From: a virus
Virus record (IMG/VR): IMGVR_UViG_3300020459_001052
Coordinates: 1-21,813 of that record
Strand: one strand, 5' to 3'
DNA length: 21,813 nt
The notes beneath the pieces are model-generated. The model did not search any database. It was not told where the DNA came from and was given only the letters and a program-made list of their open reading frames with translations. The translations under genes were made by a program, and so were the position numbers. This document shows, in pieces, positions 5,320-12,806 of this stretch; position 1 is the first letter of the stretch; every line of letters starts with the position of its first letter.

Positions 5320-5575
5320 ACACTCTACATTCAAAAGCATCAGGATGATTGTCACAATAGACTTCTAAATGTGAATCTTCATGCCTCGTATGGTAATCAT
5401 TAATCTTACCATCATTACTATCTACTTTATCATCCTTATGATATTCATCATACTCTGCATGGACATCTTTTAGATCTGCCTCAGAATACTCCAACATGCC
5501 ATGATTAATATGTTCTTTATGGTCTTTGGGATCAAGATAAACTTCATGATCTAAATCGTGTTGTTTTTGGGTCAT
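5309..5575 (-). CDS. CP12-like protein with only the C-terminal GAPDH-binding motif
   Basis: An 88-residue, very acidic and histidine-rich protein, probably disordered. Its last 18 residues (LEVYC to the end) match the C-terminus of cyanobacterial CP12. C74 and C83 are eight residues apart, with P78, E82-C83 and the closing RVYDE; the consensus is CxxNPxxxECRxYxD, and the Asn is His here. In CP12 this loop forms a redox disulfide and enters the active site of GAPDH. The middle CP12 signature AWDxVEEL and the N-terminal cysteine pair are missing. CP12 genes are known in cyanophages and are thought to damp the Calvin cycle and favour NADPH for phage nucleotides. The gene lies head-to-tail with the CpeT-type lyase. 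The C-terminal match is specific; full CP12 function is inference. Confidence 0.72.
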   Translation of the reverse strand: MTQKQHDLDHEVYLDPKDHKEHINHGMLEYSEADLKDVHAEYDEYHKDDKVDSNDGKINDYHTRHEDSHLEVYCDNHPDAFECRVYDE

Positions 5576-5616: not shown

Positions 5617-7011
5617 TTAAGTTGGGTTTTGTGGTATTGAATCTCTGTAAACCAACATTTCTGTATCCATACTCTTTCCATCATACTTATGTCTAACTGC
5701 TGCAATAACATACCTACCACTATACTTTTTATCTCTTACCATCTTATCACCCTTTAGTTTCGTTGCAGGGATATTGATATCTACACCATATCCAGCATAT
5801 AGATCTACATTTCCAGGAACAGTTACTAACAACTGAAGATTCTTAAGTGACTGCACTCTTAAATGCTGATAGGCAGTCATTGGTGCTGTATTATTATAAA
5901 CCTGTGTGTCTGCCTTTGATCCTGCAGGATCAAATATTCTATTAGGTTTTAAAACATATTTAATTCTTCTTGGATGTAAAACCATTCCCTTAGTGGCACT
6001 TCCATATGATTCTACTGGATTAGCTCCACCTCTAATATGAGACATCTTAGACCACTCATCTGATATAGTAGTTACATATGTTGGTCCTGCAGTATTATGC
6101 TCTGGTGATACCTCAGAATTTGGAATAGCGATTGGATCTAAAGCAACTACATTAACTGCCCATGCACCATTTCTCATCCCACGTAGATAATTAGTTTCTT
6201 CTGGAAATACTATTGTCTTAATTCTTAAATGATCATTTCCTATATCATCACTTTGTTTAGGTTCATAACTATACCGATATAACCTTGCTACACCTTGTGT
6301 TGTATCAGTCTCAGTATCATAATCTTGATTATTAACATCCTCAATTATTTTATCAATAGATTTAAAATGAAATCCGAAAGTATTTTCCCAGAATAAGTAT
6401 CCATTTTGGTTATCACCTCTAACAGATCTTTGTCCTATCCAATAAATTGTATCAAATGCTCTCCAGTTAGTAGCAATAAACTTATGATCATTATTAGAAT
6501 CTTCAATATAAACCTTCTTCCTAGTTAATTTTCCACTACCTCCATCTGGTTGACCTTGCATACCACCCTTACCTAAAAGATATGTAACTAAATCTTTTGC
6601 TCTATTTGAACCAGAATCTTTAAATATTACCTCAGATGCACCAAATATATTAGTACATTCATTAAGTAAAAACTCATAACTTACAGCTTTTACCATATAT
6701 GCCTCTGCATTACCAGATCTTGCTCTACTATCAATAGAATATGTAACAAGAGACCATGCTTTAGTTCCTGTAGATGTATCAATTCTAATTATCCATTCTT
6801 CACTACCAGTAAAGGTATTAATTAATCCTGCACTATCTTGTAGAACAATTTCTGCAGAAATACCTGCACTATCAATACCTTCAACAATATTACATGCCAT
6901 AACAAAATCTTCTAAACTGTTTGCACCGTCAGCGTTTTGCAAATATTGTCCATCTCTCCTAATTTTAAGAGAAAAACTTACGTCACTAGCACTTTGTCTT
7001 GTTATTGGCAT
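5617..7011 (-). CDS. 27: Baseplate central hub protein, gp27-like
   Basis: 464 residues. The layout resembles T4 gp27 and phage-tail hub (gpD-like) proteins: an N-terminal strand domain with SLKIRRDG and an EDF...CNIVEGID segment, a tube-like beta domain (EEWIIRID, NAEAYMVKAVSYEFLLNE), a middle region reporting on the host interface (FIATNWRAFDTIYWIGQRS, NGYLFWENTFGFHF), and a C-terminal barrel (AGYGVDINIPATKL, GRYVIAAVRHKYDGKSMDTEMLVYRDS). The hub connects the tail tube to the gp5-type spike; the spike gene lies three genes downstream. The start ATG overlaps the stop of the lysin gene (TGATG at 7011). T4 gp27 is somewhat shorter (about 390 residues). Sequence identity to gp27 is low by eye; architecture and location carry the call. 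Confidence 0.7.
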   Translation of the reverse strand: MPITRQSASDVSFSLKIRRDGQYLQNADGANSLEDFVMACNIVEGIDSAGISAEIVLQDSAGLINTFTGSEEWIIRIDTSTGTKAWSLVTYSIDSRARSGNAEAYMVKAVSYEFLLNECTNIFGASEVIFKDSGSNRAKDLVTYLLGKGGMQGQPDGGSGKLTRKKVYIEDSNNDHKFIATNWRAFDTIYWIGQRSVRGDNQNGYLFWENTFGFHFKSIDKIIEDVNNQDYDTETDTTQGVARLYRYSYEPKQSDDIGNDHLRIKTIVFPEETNYLRGMRNGAWAVNVVALDPIAIPNSEVSPEHNTAGPTYVTTISDEWSKMSHIRGGANPVESYGSATKGMVLHPRRIKYVLKPNRIFDPAGSKADTQVYNNTAPMTAYQHLRVQSLKNLQLLVTVPGNVDLYAGYGVDINIPATKLKGDKMVRDKKYSGRYVIAAVRHKYDGKSMDTEMLVYRDSIPQNPT

Positions 7012-9107
7012 CAGTTAAACACCTTTAGAGGATTGTTTCCAGAATTCAATGCAGCAATCAAATCCTGAGTATGTGCATTACCAGTTGGCAACACAGTTGG
7101 TTTTTTACTCTTTGCTGCATTTTCTGCTGAAGCAGTTTGCTCTGCATGTTTAGCAGCAACTGCTTTAACCTTTTCATTAGCAGCCTGAGCAATTTGTTGG
7201 ACTTGCTGAATCATAGTAACTTGTGCTTGCTTCTTCTCTGTCTTTGCAGCATCAACCTTTTCCTTCTCTTCCTTTATAGTCTTTGTGCTACCCATTGATC
7301 CTGATGATCCATCTGAAGTAATATTAGCCAATTGTTCTTTTATTCCAACAGGATTAAATGCTGAGCTAAGAGAAGATGATAAACCAGAAAGTCCATCTAA
7401 TGCTCCTTGAGTTCCACCTGAAAACGCATCTTGAAATCCCTTAATAAAAGTTTCCCAAGGATTTACTGGTTTAGTATCTTCAGATTTGGAAGTACCATCA
7501 GACTTAAGTTCTTCACTCTTGACAGGTTCAATCAATTTATCTGCGAGTTTAGTTGCTTTAGGTTCAACAGCTTTGATACCAGCATAGTTTGTCAGTAAGG
7601 TTTTCAATTTAGCAGGAGCCTTACTGTCAGTCATATAATTTTCACGGAATAACTGATCAGCACCAGCAGAGGCATCAGATGCATTATTAACACCCTTATA
7701 TCCTTTCCAATCTTTATACCAACGGTTCACTAAGTAATTAGTTGCCTCTTGAGCACTCTCAAAGTTTTTAAATTCTGCATCTTGAGGAACAACTTTTCCA
7801 TTCACTTCTTCCCAAGTTGCACTTGTTGTTCCACCAGTGCCAGGCACTGCTTTGAGTCCGTAATAATTATGCTTACCACCTACTGCTCTACCCCAATCAG
7901 ACTCATTAGCAAACTGTGCAGCAACTAAATTGGGATACTTAGCACCTGCTTTCTCTGCCATACCTTTAATTTGTGCCCACTTCTCTTCATTGGTTCCGTC
8001 AATGTCAATTTGACCACCTTCAGCAAAACCTGGATTTAAATTACCACCAAAGAAGGTATCCATATTAAATCCCATATTCTGACCTTCGCTCATTCTTTGA
8101 CCCATTAAACCAGGATTATTTCTGGTTGCTGGTGTATCAACAGGAACTACAAAACCACCACCTGATTTCTGTGCAACATATTCTGTGCCATGACCAATAA
8201 ATGAAGTAGTTTTACCACCATCTAATGATACTGGATATCCAGTCATTGGACCTTGTATCCAACCACCTTTTGCCATTTCAGGCGTTTCTGCGTCTACACC
8301 ATCTTTACCAGCTTCACCTTGAAGATCTTCTTTAGTCATGGCCTGATAAGCTAATAGACCACCACCTATAAGTAGACCAGCTACACCTGCTCGTTTCAAT
8401 GAACTTTTCAATTTCTTCTTACTCCCTGTCAAAGTTTTAATGAGTAATTTAAATACTGTACCAATATCTTCTAATATCTTTAATGGATTTGTCAACCATC
8501 TAATTGCAATAAACAATCCTGCAAAATCAGCAAGTCCTCCAAGTAAACTCCCTAATTTTTCCCACCAATTTTTAGAAGGATCAAAGAAGGTGTATAAATT
8601 ATCAATTAATCCAACTATCCTATCGCCAAGAAAGGTTGATACTGCTTTAAAAAATTTACCTAAAACCTCTATAGTCTTCTTTATTTTAGCAGTATTCTCA
8701 GGATTTGACAACCATTGCATAATAGGTTGAGCAAGAGCCAAGGTCATAAAATCTTTAAACAGATTAAATATCCCTTCCAAGAAACCAGGCATTTTTGGTC
8801 CTTCTAACTCTTCAACCTCTACAATTTCTTCGTCATCATCAGTTTGCGGTCCTGTAAATTGTGGAGCAAATCCAGTATCCACATCAGCACTTATACTCTC
8901 AAATACACGCCTTTGTGTTTCAACAAAATCCTTAAGAACATTTCCAATTGAATTTATAGTAGATCCCTGATTATTAGTTGCTTCTATATTTTTATTCAGA
9001 GATTCAACAAGACTTTTCTGTGCTTTATCACCTGTACGAGCTTTCTCAGGTTTTACAAACTTGTAAAAATCTATCTTTGCTGGTTTTTTAGCGACAACTT
9101 TTGGCAT
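7011..9107 (-). CDS. Large tail protein with GH73-type peptidoglycan hydrolase domain
   Basis: 698 residues. Residues about 1-220 are paralogous to the protein encoded upstream (shared YKFVxP near the start and WLSNPENT at 132-139), followed by a short hydrophobic segment (241-253) and Gly-rich loops (MAKGGWIQG, FAEGGQI) of the kind seen in tail-length proteins. Residues about 372-510 form a glucosaminidase domain of the FlgJ/GH73 type: AAQFANESDWGR with catalytic E402, then NYYGLK (414-419), then WYKDWKGYKG. The tail is Ser/Ala/Lys-rich coiled coil (about 625-665). The enzyme would cut the cell wall during DNA entry. This fits the absence of a lysozyme domain in the gp5-type spike of this phage. 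Start and stop are both overlapped by neighbours. The hydrolase domain is confident; structural placement is inferred from gene order. Confidence 0.8.
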   Translation of the reverse strand: MPKVVAKKPAKIDFYKFVKPEKARTGDKAQKSLVESLNKNIEATNNQGSTINSIGNVLKDFVETQRRVFESISADVDTGFAPQFTGPQTDDDEEIVEVEELEGPKMPGFLEGIFNLFKDFMTLALAQPIMQWLSNPENTAKIKKTIEVLGKFFKAVSTFLGDRIVGLIDNLYTFFDPSKNWWEKLGSLLGGLADFAGLFIAIRWLTNPLKILEDIGTVFKLLIKTLTGSKKKLKSSLKRAGVAGLLIGGGLLAYQAMTKEDLQGEAGKDGVDAETPEMAKGGWIQGPMTGYPVSLDGGKTTSFIGHGTEYVAQKSGGGFVVPVDTPATRNNPGLMGQRMSEGQNMGFNMDTFFGGNLNPGFAEGGQIDIDGTNEEKWAQIKGMAEKAGAKYPNLVAAQFANESDWGRAVGGKHNYYGLKAVPGTGGTTSATWEEVNGKVVPQDAEFKNFESAQEATNYLVNRWYKDWKGYKGVNNASDASAGADQLFRENYMTDSKAPAKLKTLLTNYAGIKAVEPKATKLADKLIEPVKSEELKSDGTSKSEDTKPVNPWETFIKGFQDAFSGGTQGALDGLSGLSSSLSSAFNPVGIKEQLANITSDGSSGSMGSTKTIKEEKEKVDAAKTEKKQAQVTMIQQVQQIAQAANEKVKAVAAKHAEQTASAENAAKSKKPTVLPTGNAHTQDLIAALNSGNNPLKVFN

Positions 9108-11110
9108 TACTTACTAAGCAAAGGTGAAGGTCTTGTTACAATTACTTCTGCAGGACTATTTATTGGTACCGCAGTAGGTACTGCTTCTGCAAACGCAATT
9201 GGAATTGGAATTGGAACAGATTCAATATCATTAGACATCATAGCAAATTCTGCAGAGAATGAAGGAATACGTTTCTTCTCTACCCTCTTAAATGGTGATG
9301 CTGGAGAAACTCCACCAACTGAAGTTGGGTTTATAGATGATATTGAAGACTGACCATATTTACTGGCAGATCCTATTAAACCACCCATTGCCTTCCCTTC
9401 TATACTTTCAGTTGCATCAATCTTTTCTAATTGACCCTTTTCACCCTTTTCACCACCAGTAAGCATACTAATAATTTGTCCTAAATCGGGCAATTTACTT
9501 ATAACACCCTCTATCTTACCTTTAGCAGCAGTTGCACCAGGTACCAAATCTATCAAACCTTCTTCTGCTCCCATTACAGTTTCAGGAAACATATCTCTAC
9601 CAAACATATAAGCATCAAGTGCTAAAGAACCTGGCCACATACCAGCAATATCCAATGCTCCAGATACAGATTCAATTATACCTCCAACTAAGTCTCCACT
9701 AGCAAATCTATCATATGCAAAAAGTATATTAATAAGACCACCAATCCAAGGCAATGCTTTAGCACCCATTTTCTTAGCAATACTTGCAGCACCATCAAGA
9801 GACTGAAGACCAATTTTCTTAAGCAACTTCTCCAAACCAGGAATCTTCATTAGATTCTTCATTAATGAATCTTTCAAAGCTAAAATAGGTTTTAAAGCTG
9901 GTTCCAAAAACTCCATAAGAGGAGTCATTATCTTTTTACTAATACCATCCTGTACATTTTTAGCCTGTTTACCAAACCAATCGCCAGCAGCTTTTGTTGC
10001 ATTATCATATTGATTTCTTAAACTTTGACCAAAATTGGCCATCCGTTTCATATTATCATTAAAACCTTTAACAGCCCAATCACTCACAGAATCAATAAGA
10101 TCACCAGTAGCAGTTGTTATTTTATTCCACCAACCACTCTTAGGTTTTACACCTTTAATCTTTCTTGCTTGAGTAAGTGCGTCTTTTACTGTGGATCCAC
10201 CTTCTCTTGCCTTTTTAAATGCACGTATCTGATCATCATCTAAACCCAAATCAGAAAGTTTAATTTCTGACTTAAGTTTATTTCTTATAGTGCCATCAGG
10301 ATCAATTATCTGTTTCTTTTTTACCTTTTTATAATTACCATCACCATCTACTCCACCACCCTTATTCTTTTGTCTATTATTCAATTCATCTCCATCTGGT
10401 CCTTTGAAGGGGTTTATATCTGATAACAGACCAGAAAGCCAAATAATATCATTAATTAATGAAAATGGATTCAGTAGATACTTTATTCCTGCAAGACCTA
10501 CTAATAGTTCTCCAAAACCCTTTAACCTCTCCCAAAAACTAGCTTCACCATCTATTAAAGTAGTAAATCCTTCAAGAACATTATTAGCAAAACCTCCCAT
10601 CCATTTGGCTAAAGTGCCAAATACCACACCTGCTTTTTCAACAGTAGATTTGAGTTTCTCAGTATTAGCAGGATCCTTCATCCAATCAAGAAGTTCTTTA
10701 GCTATAACTAATCCAACAATATCCTTTAAAAAATTAGCAAGTGGTGCGATAGTTTTATTAATCCATGCTAAAAATGGATTCTCTATCTCTTCTATTTCTT
10801 CTTCTTCCTCATCTGTAGGTTCGGGTTTATCAGATGTAGTTGTTCCAGGTTTCTTACCTTCCTGTCTATTCTCTGCTGCTAAATCCCTCTGCCTTCTTAT
10901 CTTCTTCTTCTTTTGCTTTTTTTGTTCATTCAAGAACTTCAAATATGAATTATTACCTGATACAATAACTTCTAATGTTGCTCCAATCCCTTCTACAGTT
11001 TTTCCAATCCTATTCTGAGCAACTAAAAGGTTACCCGAAGCTTCAGTCGCAGGAGTAGCAGATGCTGCCACGACTGGACTCACAAATTTATAGGATTTTA
11101 TTTTAGCCAC
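9107..11110 (-). CDS. Large tail protein, tape-measure or hub-like, paralogue of the tail lysin
   Basis: 667 residues starting with GTG at 11110, with AAGGAG ten bases upstream. Order: YKFVSP start, Lys/Arg-rich coil (64-75), a run of glutamates (101-110), an amphipathic to hydrophobic region (112-230) containing WMKDPANT (143-150), a basic linker, and a second hydrophobic region (about 425-560: ALPWIGGLINILFAYDRF and neighbours) ending in a MGGLIG loop. Residues 109-220 align with 102-211 of the next gene without large gaps. It lies directly after the putative frameshifted gp26 pair. In long-tailed phages that position is held by the tape measure protein; in T4 gp29 (590 residues) holds the related place. 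A tape-measure role is inference; a virion structural role is well supported by context. Confidence 0.65.
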   Translation of the reverse strand: MAKIKSYKFVSPVVAASATPATEASGNLLVAQNRIGKTVEGIGATLEVIVSGNNSYLKFLNEQKKQKKKKIRRQRDLAAENRQEGKKPGTTTSDKPEPTDEEEEEIEEIENPFLAWINKTIAPLANFLKDIVGLVIAKELLDWMKDPANTEKLKSTVEKAGVVFGTLAKWMGGFANNVLEGFTTLIDGEASFWERLKGFGELLVGLAGIKYLLNPFSLINDIIWLSGLLSDINPFKGPDGDELNNRQKNKGGGVDGDGNYKKVKKKQIIDPDGTIRNKLKSEIKLSDLGLDDDQIRAFKKAREGGSTVKDALTQARKIKGVKPKSGWWNKITTATGDLIDSVSDWAVKGFNDNMKRMANFGQSLRNQYDNATKAAGDWFGKQAKNVQDGISKKIMTPLMEFLEPALKPILALKDSLMKNLMKIPGLEKLLKKIGLQSLDGAASIAKKMGAKALPWIGGLINILFAYDRFASGDLVGGIIESVSGALDIAGMWPGSLALDAYMFGRDMFPETVMGAEEGLIDLVPGATAAKGKIEGVISKLPDLGQIISMLTGGEKGEKGQLEKIDATESIEGKAMGGLIGSASKYGQSSISSINPTSVGGVSPASPFKRVEKKRIPSFSAEFAMMSNDIESVPIPIPIAFAEAVPTAVPINSPAEVIVTRPSPLLSK

Positions 11111-11294
11111 TAACTTGTTGCTCCTTGTAACGTCTTTCCTCTTCCTTAAGGAATGTTATCAACATATTAACGTAAATTTCCTTCTCCCAAGGCATCAAGT
11201 TTTCAATATATTCAATATTCCACTTGTGGTGGTGCATTAATGCAAAATTAGCCTCATAATAAGTTCTTAAATTATTGTGTAGAAGGGCTACCCG
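11103..11294 (-). CDS. Second frame of a gp26 frameshift product (tail assembly chaperone extension)
   Basis: This frame encodes 63 residues beginning RVALLHNNLRTYYEANFALM and ending QQVSG, with TAA at 11103. It has a compact conserved-looking core (YYEANF, HHHKW, MPWEKEIYV, FLKEEE) typical of small partners of phage tail assembly chaperones. The frame is open only from 11312 and has no ATG, GTG or TTG before the ATG at 11237, which would remove the first 19 residues and has no well-spaced ribosome-binding site. A -1 slip of ribosomes on the gp26 message at TTTTTTC (11300-11294) enters exactly this frame and would give a 299-residue fusion. It sits where T4 has gene 51, but I do not claim homology to gp51. 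Its end overlaps the GTG start of the next gene by eight bases. Confidence 0.7.
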   Translation of the reverse strand, partial: RVALLHNNLRTYYEANFALMHHHKWNIEYIENLMPWEKEIYVNMLITFLKEEERRYKEQQVSG

Positions 11295-12001
11295 AAAAAA
11301 CTGGTTAATCCCTCAAGCACAACTTCAGATTTCACTTTTGTTTTGGGGTTGGTCACTTCAACAGTGTGTGATAACTTAGGCATTGTTTCAAAAAAGGTTT
11401 GAACCATTTGAAACTGCTTGGTATTCATATCACCAAAGAATTCCATTAATTCTTTCTTTGGTTGATCCTTGCATGGATAAACTTGCTGAGAATCAGCAAT
11501 ACTTTCAGCACAACCTGCTGCAAGTTCAAATATTTGATCCATATCAGTTACACCTTCACCTGTAAAGTTTGATTTAACAAACATATCCAAACTAGGATAA
11601 CCCATAGTTAATATAACTTCATCACTCAATTTAAGAGTTTTAGTATGATTTGGATCTTTTTTAACTTCAATTTCATCTAATGGAATTGAAACTTTCACTG
11701 CAGTTTCATTATCATCAGGACATGTAACAGACACATCCACATTCTCACCAACAGATCTGGTGCGAATTTTCAAGAAAAGAAATTCAATATCGAATGTAGA
11801 TAGACTATTTACACTCTTCATATTAGTGCATGATAAAAGAATGTTCTTAACTGCGTTAATTAAATCTTTTTGCTCACCTGTTTCCATTGCAAGAAATAGA
11901 AGTTTTTCTTCTTTTACTAGAAATGGTCTATATTTAACAGTTTTACCAGACGAAGGTAATTTTAAATGATATTCAGGTACATTTAGCTTTGGTAATGCCA
12001 T
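11288..12001 (-). CDS. 26: gp26-type baseplate hub/tail assembly protein
   Basis: 237 residues in the zero frame. It starts MALPKLNVPEYHLKLPSSGK, followed by VKYRPFLVKEEKLLFLAMET, a central SxFDIEFLFLKIRTRSVGE segment and a strand domain with TCPDDN. The helical C-terminus ends LEGLTSFFG. This matches the T4 baseplate protein family (gp26; 208 residues in T4), which acts in building the central hub. Its last codons contain the slip sequence TTTTTTC preceded by GAGGG, so a fraction of ribosomes probably continues in the -1 frame. The next genes are two large tail proteins, the usual clients of tail assembly chaperones. Family assignment is firm. Confidence 0.87.
   Translation of the reverse strand: MALPKLNVPEYHLKLPSSGKTVKYRPFLVKEEKLLFLAMETGEQKDLINAVKNILLSCTNMKSVNSLSTFDIEFLFLKIRTRSVGENVDVSVTCPDDNETAVKVSIPLDEIEVKKDPNHTKTLKLSDEVILTMGYPSLDMFVKSNFTGEGVTDMDQIFELAAGCAESIADSQQVYPCKDQPKKELMEFFGDMNTKQFQMVQTFFETMPKLSHTVEVTNPKTKVKSEVVLEGLTSFFG
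11294..11314 (-). promoter_or_regulatory. Putative programmed -1 ribosomal frameshift signal
   Basis: In the gp26 zero frame the codons are AGT TTT TTC GGG TAG, so the heptamer T TTT TTC (11300-11294) fits X XXY YYZ and both tRNAs can re-pair after a -1 slip. A Shine-Dalgarno-like GAGGG (11314-11310) lies nine bases upstream, a spacing like that of the stimulator in E. coli dnaX. Downstream, GGG(TAG)CCC and GTAG/CTAC allow only weak hairpins. The zero-frame stop comes two codons after the slip site. Confidence 0.7.
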
Positions 12002-12023: not shown

Positions 12024-12031
12024 TATTTAGG
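12024..12031 (-). promoter_or_regulatory. Late-type box (CCTAAATA) before gp26
   Basis: Minus-strand CCTAAATA at 12031-12024 overlaps the stop of the tube-like gene and lies about 22 bases before the gp26 ATG at 12001. It matches six of eight bases of TATAAATA, and the same octamer occurs before gp4 (13255-13262). It is suggestive only, because TAA stop codons in AT-rich DNA make such matches by chance. Confidence 0.35.
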
Positions 12032-12806
12032 AGTTATTCTGATCTTGTTGTAGATCTGCTGTAACACCAGTTTCACCTGTTACGAGATAAGATCTACCTA
12101 AGTTGTCAATAGTGTCAGCACCATAGAATCTATATCTCTCATAGAAGAATCCAATATCAAGTTTTAATAAAGATGCTTGCTCATTATTCAATGCCATTGT
12201 TCCAATATTCATTGGAAATGCATTTCTTATATCATATATACCAACTAACTGATCATCCCTATATCTCTCAACATCAGATATCGCAACTCCAATCTTCCTT
12301 AAGAAAGCTTTAACTGCATCAGGTAGTGTTATCTTTTCTCCTCCACCTCTCTCCCATTTGAAGATATAAAGATGAGGGCAAGTATAATTCTCATAATAAT
12401 CAGTCATCTGATTTGAATCAGGAGACATGAGATGAACCCATCTTTCAAAAATCATCCTAGTCTTATGGTTTCTAGGTAATGTAAATGAAATGTTTATTTG
12501 ACTGAATGAAGATGATGTTGCATAGTTATATGCTGATCCAATATTCGTAATTGATGCTGTAGTTACTTGCTTACTTGGTAAATTAACTGTATCAGCATAC
12601 AAATTCAAATATTTGGCATTATCACCAGTTTCCAACAAATACTTACTAGTAGGATAATAAAAACCTGACCTAAAAACAATAGGTGTGCTAAATTGCACAG
12701 AATATCTATTACTGAAGCTAGGGTTATTGTTATTACCCTTAAACCATTCAGAGAATTCGGTTAATCTTGCTCTAGGTGTTTGCTTAGATGCTCCGTTTAA
12801 ATCCAT
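12027..12806 (-). CDS. Tail tube-like protein (gp54/gp19 fold)
   Basis: 259 residues. The pattern is that of T4 gp19-type tube subunits: an early strand (NRYSVQFSTPIVF), a loop with VNLPSKQV, the long strand SFSQINISFTLP, a helix (RMIFERWVHLMSP), YYENYTCPHLYIFKWERG, and the closing pair VGIYDIRNAFPMNIGTMALNNEQASLLKLDIGFFYERYRF. In T4 the gp54 tail tube initiator has this fold and works next to gp48, which is encoded close by on the opposite strand. A tube initiator is therefore the most likely role, with another baseplate-proximal tube protein as the alternative. It lies four bases after gp4 and shares its transcript. Confidence 0.62.
   Translation of the reverse strand: MDLNGASKQTPRARLTEFSEWFKGNNNNPSFSNRYSVQFSTPIVFRSGFYYPTSKYLLETGDNAKYLNLYADTVNLPSKQVTTASITNIGSAYNYATSSSFSQINISFTLPRNHKTRMIFERWVHLMSPDSNQMTDYYENYTCPHLYIFKWERGGGEKITLPDAVKAFLRKIGVAISDVERYRDDQLVGIYDIRNAFPMNIGTMALNNEQASLLKLDIGFFYERYRFYGADTIDNLGRSYLVTGETGVTADLQQDQNNS

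Follow-up and report, generated by a model that had tools for sequence, protein, structure and literature searches.

What happens to translation at the end of the gp26 gene is the question raised by the locus described here, which lies on a 21.8 kb fragment of DNA from a marine virus of the cyanophage type (IMG/VR record IMGVR_UViG_3300020459_001052, positions 1 to 21,813; 21,813 nt in all, hereafter the window). On its minus strand a gene for a T4-type gp26 ends in a heptamer of the kind on which ribosomes slip, and a second reading frame runs on beyond the stop codon. The slip site, the colinearity of T4 gp51 with gp26 plus this second frame, and the split of related genomes by gene copy number together lead us to conclude that gp26 and the frame that follows it very probably form one tail assembly chaperone gene of the lambda G/GT type, expressed through a -1 frameshift, a reading drawn from comparative sequence analysis.

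The gp26 locus and its slip signal

Read on the minus strand, the gp26 gene ends CTT GAG GGA TTA ACC AGT TTT TTC GGG TAG. The initial annotation had placed a TTTTTTC before the gp26 stop in the right phase for a -1 slip, with GAGGG nine bases upstream, and a rereading of the minus strand agrees (Table 1). Among the 30 open reading frames (ORFs) of the window, with 6,813 codons, the end of gp26 is the only place at which TTTTTTC occurs in phase. The gp26 match to PF12322 spans positions 2-218 of the 219 in the profile, which is most of the domain. The -1 frame is open across 11294-11106, begins RVALLHNNLRTYYEANFALMHHHKW, and closes with TAA at 11105-11103, where it overlaps the GTG start (11110) of the next gene.

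Table 1. Features of the gp26 locus and its neighbours in the window.
Feature	Coordinates	Strand	Profile match	Proposed identity or remark
Tail-tube-like gene	12027..12806	-	phrog_45 tail tube, E 4.3e-46	Adjoins gp26 upstream
gp26 ORF, 237 aa	11288..12001	-	PF12322, E 1.8e-72; phrog_150, E 9.8e-83	Predicted short tail assembly chaperone (TAC-N), zero-frame product
Shine-Dalgarno-like GAGGG	11310..11314	-		Nine bases 5' of heptamer; probable stimulator
Slippery heptamer T TTT TTC	11294..11300	-		In phase for tandem -1 slippage
gp26 stop codon TAG	11288..11290	-		One codon past heptamer
-1 frame extension, 63 codons + TAA	11103..11294	-	phrog_634, E 5.8e-29	Predicted C-terminal domain of long chaperone (TAC-NC); gp51 in other annotations
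First in-frame ATG of -1 frame	11235..11237	-		Probably an ordinary Met codon
Large downstream gene	9107..11110	-	phrog_790 'endolysin', E 7.5e-98	Tape-measure candidate by position alone

We envisage that most ribosomes would stop at 11288-11290 and release the 237-residue short form, and that in a minority the tRNA-Phe on T TTT TTC would re-pair one base back on TTT TTT and so enter the -1 frame. The long form would then have 299 residues, consisting of gp26 residues 1-236 followed by 63 residues from the extension. Base pairing between the GAGGG and 16S rRNA would probably help the ribosome to slip. If the two forms act as gpG and gpGT do in lambda, the tape measure protein would be coated by a large number of short chaperones and a small number of long ones, and tail tube subunits would be brought in through the extra C-terminal part of the long form (PMC5009743).

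Conservation of the slip site among relatives

A collection of 123 loci from viral contigs and phage records was dereplicated at 85% protein identity to 81, and in 80 of these the gp26 gene ends in T TTT TTN, with TTC in 77, TTT in two and TTG in one. One of the two peptide patterns used in the search presupposed two Phe residues in the protein, but not their codon choice; TTTTTTC is present in all 26 full-length loci that were found without using the C-terminus. The codon before the terminal Phe pair is AGT, TCT, GCT, GAT, AAT or GGT and encodes Ser, Ala, Asp, Asn or Gly, yet its third base is always T. From codon usage this constant T has a log10 probability of about -17.5 under an assumption of independent loci, which these loci are not. 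Where Phe-Phe occurs elsewhere in these genes, it is written TTT TTC once in 101 cases and forms an in-phase T-TTT-TTN in none of the 101 (Fisher tests of terminal against internal pairs give 3e-46 and 2e-53, a significance that is overstated by the relatedness of the sequences).

T4-like cyanophages have kept the heptamer, in the right phase, together with a frame that is open ahead of the position of 11237, and the same three features are found in vibrio-, aeromonas-, pseudomonas-, stenotrophomonas- and sinorhizobium-phages. The signal and frame are kept in more than 100 relatives, which is far beyond chance. It is hardly credible, then, that translation always ends at the gp26 stop, with the frame beyond it decayed or the break due to a sequencing error, since the identical arrangement is seen in more than 100 records and the ratio of nonsynonymous to synonymous polymorphism (pN/pS) is well below 1.

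The -1 frame extension

The extension matches phrog_634 ('gp51 hub assembly catalyst', baseplate) over profile positions 58-117. With tblastn it matches 559 phage records, and the homology mostly begins at the first residue after the slip. The initial annotation had described a 63-residue frame without a start codon before the ATG at 11237 and with coding-like residues upstream of it, and this description is borne out. In the -1 frame of the window the first codon of the kind ATG, GTG or TTG is the one at 11237, at +53 relative to the gp26 stop, and 24 of the 76 complete dereplicated extensions, the window's included, have none within 40 nt of that stop; the rest have a possible start. From the slip site to where the Met usually lies, these 24 have a pN/pS of 0.32 (0.21 for closer pairs), and it is the third codon positions that vary most in these start-less stretches (2278 versus 1299 and 1034). 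Because they have no start within 40 nt and yet a low pN/pS, these selected stretches upstream of the Met can hardly be produced without a frameshift.

Initiation at 11237 itself was considered and rejected. The nearest Shine-Dalgarno-like GAGG is 14 bases away, a poor spacing, and the Met is not conserved: L037 and L055, among other relatives, have Ile in its place.

Relationship to T4 gp26 and gp51

T4 gp26 (E 8.8e-64) and gp51 (E 3.9e-52) belong by profile match to PF12322 and by this shared family are judged to be paralogues; the C-terminus of T4 gp51 also matches phrog_634. In hhalign comparisons residues 6-188 of the T4-type gp51 align with the gp26 profile (E 1.6e-10) and residues 207-246 with that of the extension (E 4e-7), the same order as in gp26 plus its extension. 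By these alignments T4 gp51 has the layout of the predicted long form, being colinear with gp26 followed by its -1 frame extension, and T4 gp26 belongs to the same family as the short form. T4 has two separate genes on opposite strands and no slip site, whereas here there is one gene and a putative frameshift.

The same division is seen among other genomes. A single copy of PF12322 is present in S-SM1, S-PM2, S-RIM8, KVP40, phiM9, Ah1, Aeh1, Milchi, Yut3, Kuja, P-HM2, AS-zj and pf16, 13 genomes in all; the extension is in the -1 frame in 13 of 13 checked, and the slip site is present in 12 of them. Two copies are found in T4, 44RR and EC-F2, and the heptamer is absent from the ends of the short genes of these three and of Acinetobacter phage AB1I1T. 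No separate full-length gp51 gene was found in the related complete genomes, which hold one PF12322 copy. Because copy number and slip site split the genomes in opposite ways, short and long chaperones would appear to be made by frameshifting in one set of phages and through gene duplication in the other.

On balance we think it probable that T4-like phages that infect cyanobacteria or several proteobacterial hosts generally make the long chaperone, and probably did so ancestrally, by means of a frameshift signal composed of a Shine-Dalgarno-like element, T TTT TTN and a hairpin that differs by lineage, and that T4 and its close relatives swapped in a duplication, represented by genes 26 and 51. 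We infer the ancestral direction from the distribution of the two arrangements.

The Enterobacter phage EC-F2 (L127 2501-3794) has long gp51-type and short gp26-type genes in tandem on the same strand, and its short gene is without the N-terminal part of PF12322. T4 gp26 also weakly matches the gp28 PHROG (phrog_1140, E 9e-4; T4 gene 28 is at L034 6349-6879), and a remote relation between gp26 and gp28 is possible on the strength of this profile match.

Probable stimulatory elements around the slip site

Of 80 loci, 76 have a Shine-Dalgarno-like tetramer whose first base lies 12-13 nt ahead of the heptamer, and both the element and its spacing are kept where Glu-Gly becomes Lys-Gly or Arg-Gly (AAAGGG, AGAGGG). 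Pairing with the anti-Shine-Dalgarno sequence averages -6.94 kcal/mol, compared with -5.86 kcal/mol in synonymous resampling, in which no resampled set was as low. An upstream Shine-Dalgarno-like element of the kind that acts as stimulator in dnaX-type signals is thus present.

Downstream of the heptamer, folding is on average stronger than in synonymous controls (mean z -1.27, standard error 0.18). A universal downstream RNA structure was rejected, as the helices differ among clades, and perfect simple hairpins downstream are not in excess (54 of 75, against 49.7 in controls with a standard deviation of 4.3). One clade of 14 sequences has an 11-bp hairpin that starts five bases past the heptamer, with compensatory changes on both sides at three pairs and with 96% of cells paired. 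The stem of this hairpin (A5 columns 13-43, for example in L020) contains the ATG that lies at +5 relative to the gp26 stop, and the apparent gp51 start codon in this clade may be partly a by-product of the structure.

These elements also bear on whether RNA polymerase rather than the ribosome slips. The homopolymer run that polymerase slippage requires does exist, and one extra U in the mRNA would lead to the same frame and the same long product. The run is six T, however, and in 77 of the 80 loci the next base is C and not a further T; a Shine-Dalgarno-like element at fixed spacing and clade-specific hairpins are the kinds of element that stimulate ribosomal frameshifting. We consider polymerase slippage highly unlikely as the source of the long product.

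Evidence against a frameshifted chaperone and the case for a separate gp51

Several observations weigh against the interpretation of the locus as a frameshifted chaperone gene. The sole exception among the 81 loci, Vibrio phage Kuja, has CTT TTT in place of the heptamer with the -1 frame open, and the conservation as a whole is counted over related sequences, which are not independent observations. No stable hairpin was found downstream of the heptamer in the window, where only weak structure is predicted. U UUU UUN heptamers are less slippery than A AAA AAG in Escherichia coli, in a comparison that did not include UUC (PMC5009743). When the AlphaFold2 model of gp26 (pLDDT, predicted local distance difference test, 83.8) was searched by fold against the PDB, the HK97 chaperone 2ob9 ranked third; its probability of 0.33 exceeded those of the other top hits, but its E value of 1.3 is not significant. 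Finally, 25 of the 76 dereplicated relatives, about a third, have an ATG at +5, five bases after the first base of the gp26 stop codon, from which gp51 could be translated separately. The Kuja locus (L119 1180-2123) is itself a single-copy PF12322 gene.

This +5 ATG, together with GenBank records in which gp51 is listed as a separate coding sequence, would suit a gp51 that is a small protein in its own right: through reinitiation or coupling, ribosomes would begin it at a separate start codon once gp26 has ended, and the two would never be fused. We regard such a separate gp51 as very unlikely. The 24 start-less extensions, among them that of the window, lack a usable start for more than 40 nt despite purifying selection; the heptamer is kept whether or not the ATG exists, and its codon-level conservation is left unexplained; the gp51 of the T4 type corresponds to a colinear fusion; and one clade has its +5 ATG within the stem of a hairpin. 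The initial annotation had named absence of the slip site from relatives and a normal start in homologues as signs that would tell against a frameshift. The heptamer is present in relatives, and although some homologues have an ATG just past the gp26 stop they too retain it. We therefore favour a frameshift at the end of gp26, and in the relatives with the +5 ATG both the frameshift and a separate start may be used.

Neighbouring genes and structure searches

In the KVP40 record the equivalent of the tail-tube-like gene (12027-12806) is noted as a duplicated tail tube protein. Downstream of gp26, the adjacent large genes at 7011-9107 and 9107-11110, both on the minus strand, have N-termini that share phrog_790, phrog_1200, phrog_13530 and phrog_2588, and from these shared matches they look like paralogues. 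The gene at 7011-9107 carries a glucosaminidase domain (PF01832); tape measure or hub protein is a candidate role for the pair. No solved homologous structure was found by sequence, and none that was significant by fold for gp26 or the T4-type gp51; in a third fold search the best matches were viral relatives that are labelled gp26-like hub proteins or are unnamed.

Annotation of the second frame in public records

Annotated starts of gp51 vary among records, at 5508 in ACG-2014a, 6504 in S-RIM8, 7178 in S-SM1 and 10265 in P-HM2, and fall about 8 to 95 bases after the first base of the gp26 stop codon. The frame is unannotated in Ah1 and AS-zj. The expectation in the initial annotation that the second frame is easily missed applies to such genomes, but many cyanophages do have an annotated gp51, given differing downstream starts. 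For cyanophages of this kind, which rank among the most abundant viruses of the sea, many records have a gp51 with wrong boundaries, or none. A frameshift would account for the listing of the second half in databases as a separate and oddly short gene. Sullivan et al. (2010) described cyanophage and vibriophage gp51 proteins without the first ~200 residues of T4 gp51, and reported Aeh1 to be without gp51 (PMC3037559); Aeh1 does carry the frame, immediately past GAT TTT TTC GAC TGA. An ancestral frameshift, if correct, would account for the 'truncated' state of gp51 in cyanophages as well as for the report that Aeh1 lacks it.

Comparison with known systems

Tail assembly chaperones of T4-like phages were reportedly identified by Vladimirov, Gautam and Davidson in 2022 (Virology 566:9-15). 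A passage on that paper in PMC10885494 states that some T4-like phages have separate short and fused long genes, and PMC12846349 refers to it for the presence of poly-T slip sequences in the short chaperone genes of T4-like phages. The initial annotation knew of no description of such a frameshift for T4-type gp26; in view of these accounts the type of frameshift is already known, and the poly-T site in T4-like phages probably is too, so that this frameshift may already have been described in part. A literature search pairing the gp51 'hub assembly catalyst' with frameshifting gave no match. The present analysis contributes a quantified conservation at codon level, together with the Shine-Dalgarno-like element, the clade hairpin, the copy-number dichotomy and an explanation of the misannotated gp51.

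As with lambda gpG/gpGT, and the P2, Mu and HK97 type more generally, the gene order fits on the upstream side, where a tail-tube-like gene precedes the chaperone, and large candidate tail genes follow it; the locus differs from lambda in its family (PF12322), its slip site (T TTT TTC) and its upstream Shine-Dalgarno-like element. With dnaX-type signals it shares a Shine-Dalgarno-like element about nine bases before an X XXY YYZ heptamer and, in some relatives, a hairpin a few bases downstream. Unlike in dnaX, the hairpin of the window is weak or absent, and the frameshift would yield a longer rather than a shorter product. In Vandenendeviridae and Andersonviridae, as described for phage Adele, a poly-T slip motif likewise ends the short chaperone gene and the downstream frame is misannotated as a gene, but the motif is GTTTTT and the phages are of another lineage (PMC12846349).

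If gp26 and gp51 are one frameshifted chaperone, T4-like phages share the short and long chaperone logic of lambda. The frameshift has been said to be conserved in long-tailed phages 'except T4' (PMC5009743), a statement that would hold because T4 has two genes instead of a frameshift, and gene duplication and recoding would then be doing the same job within one family.
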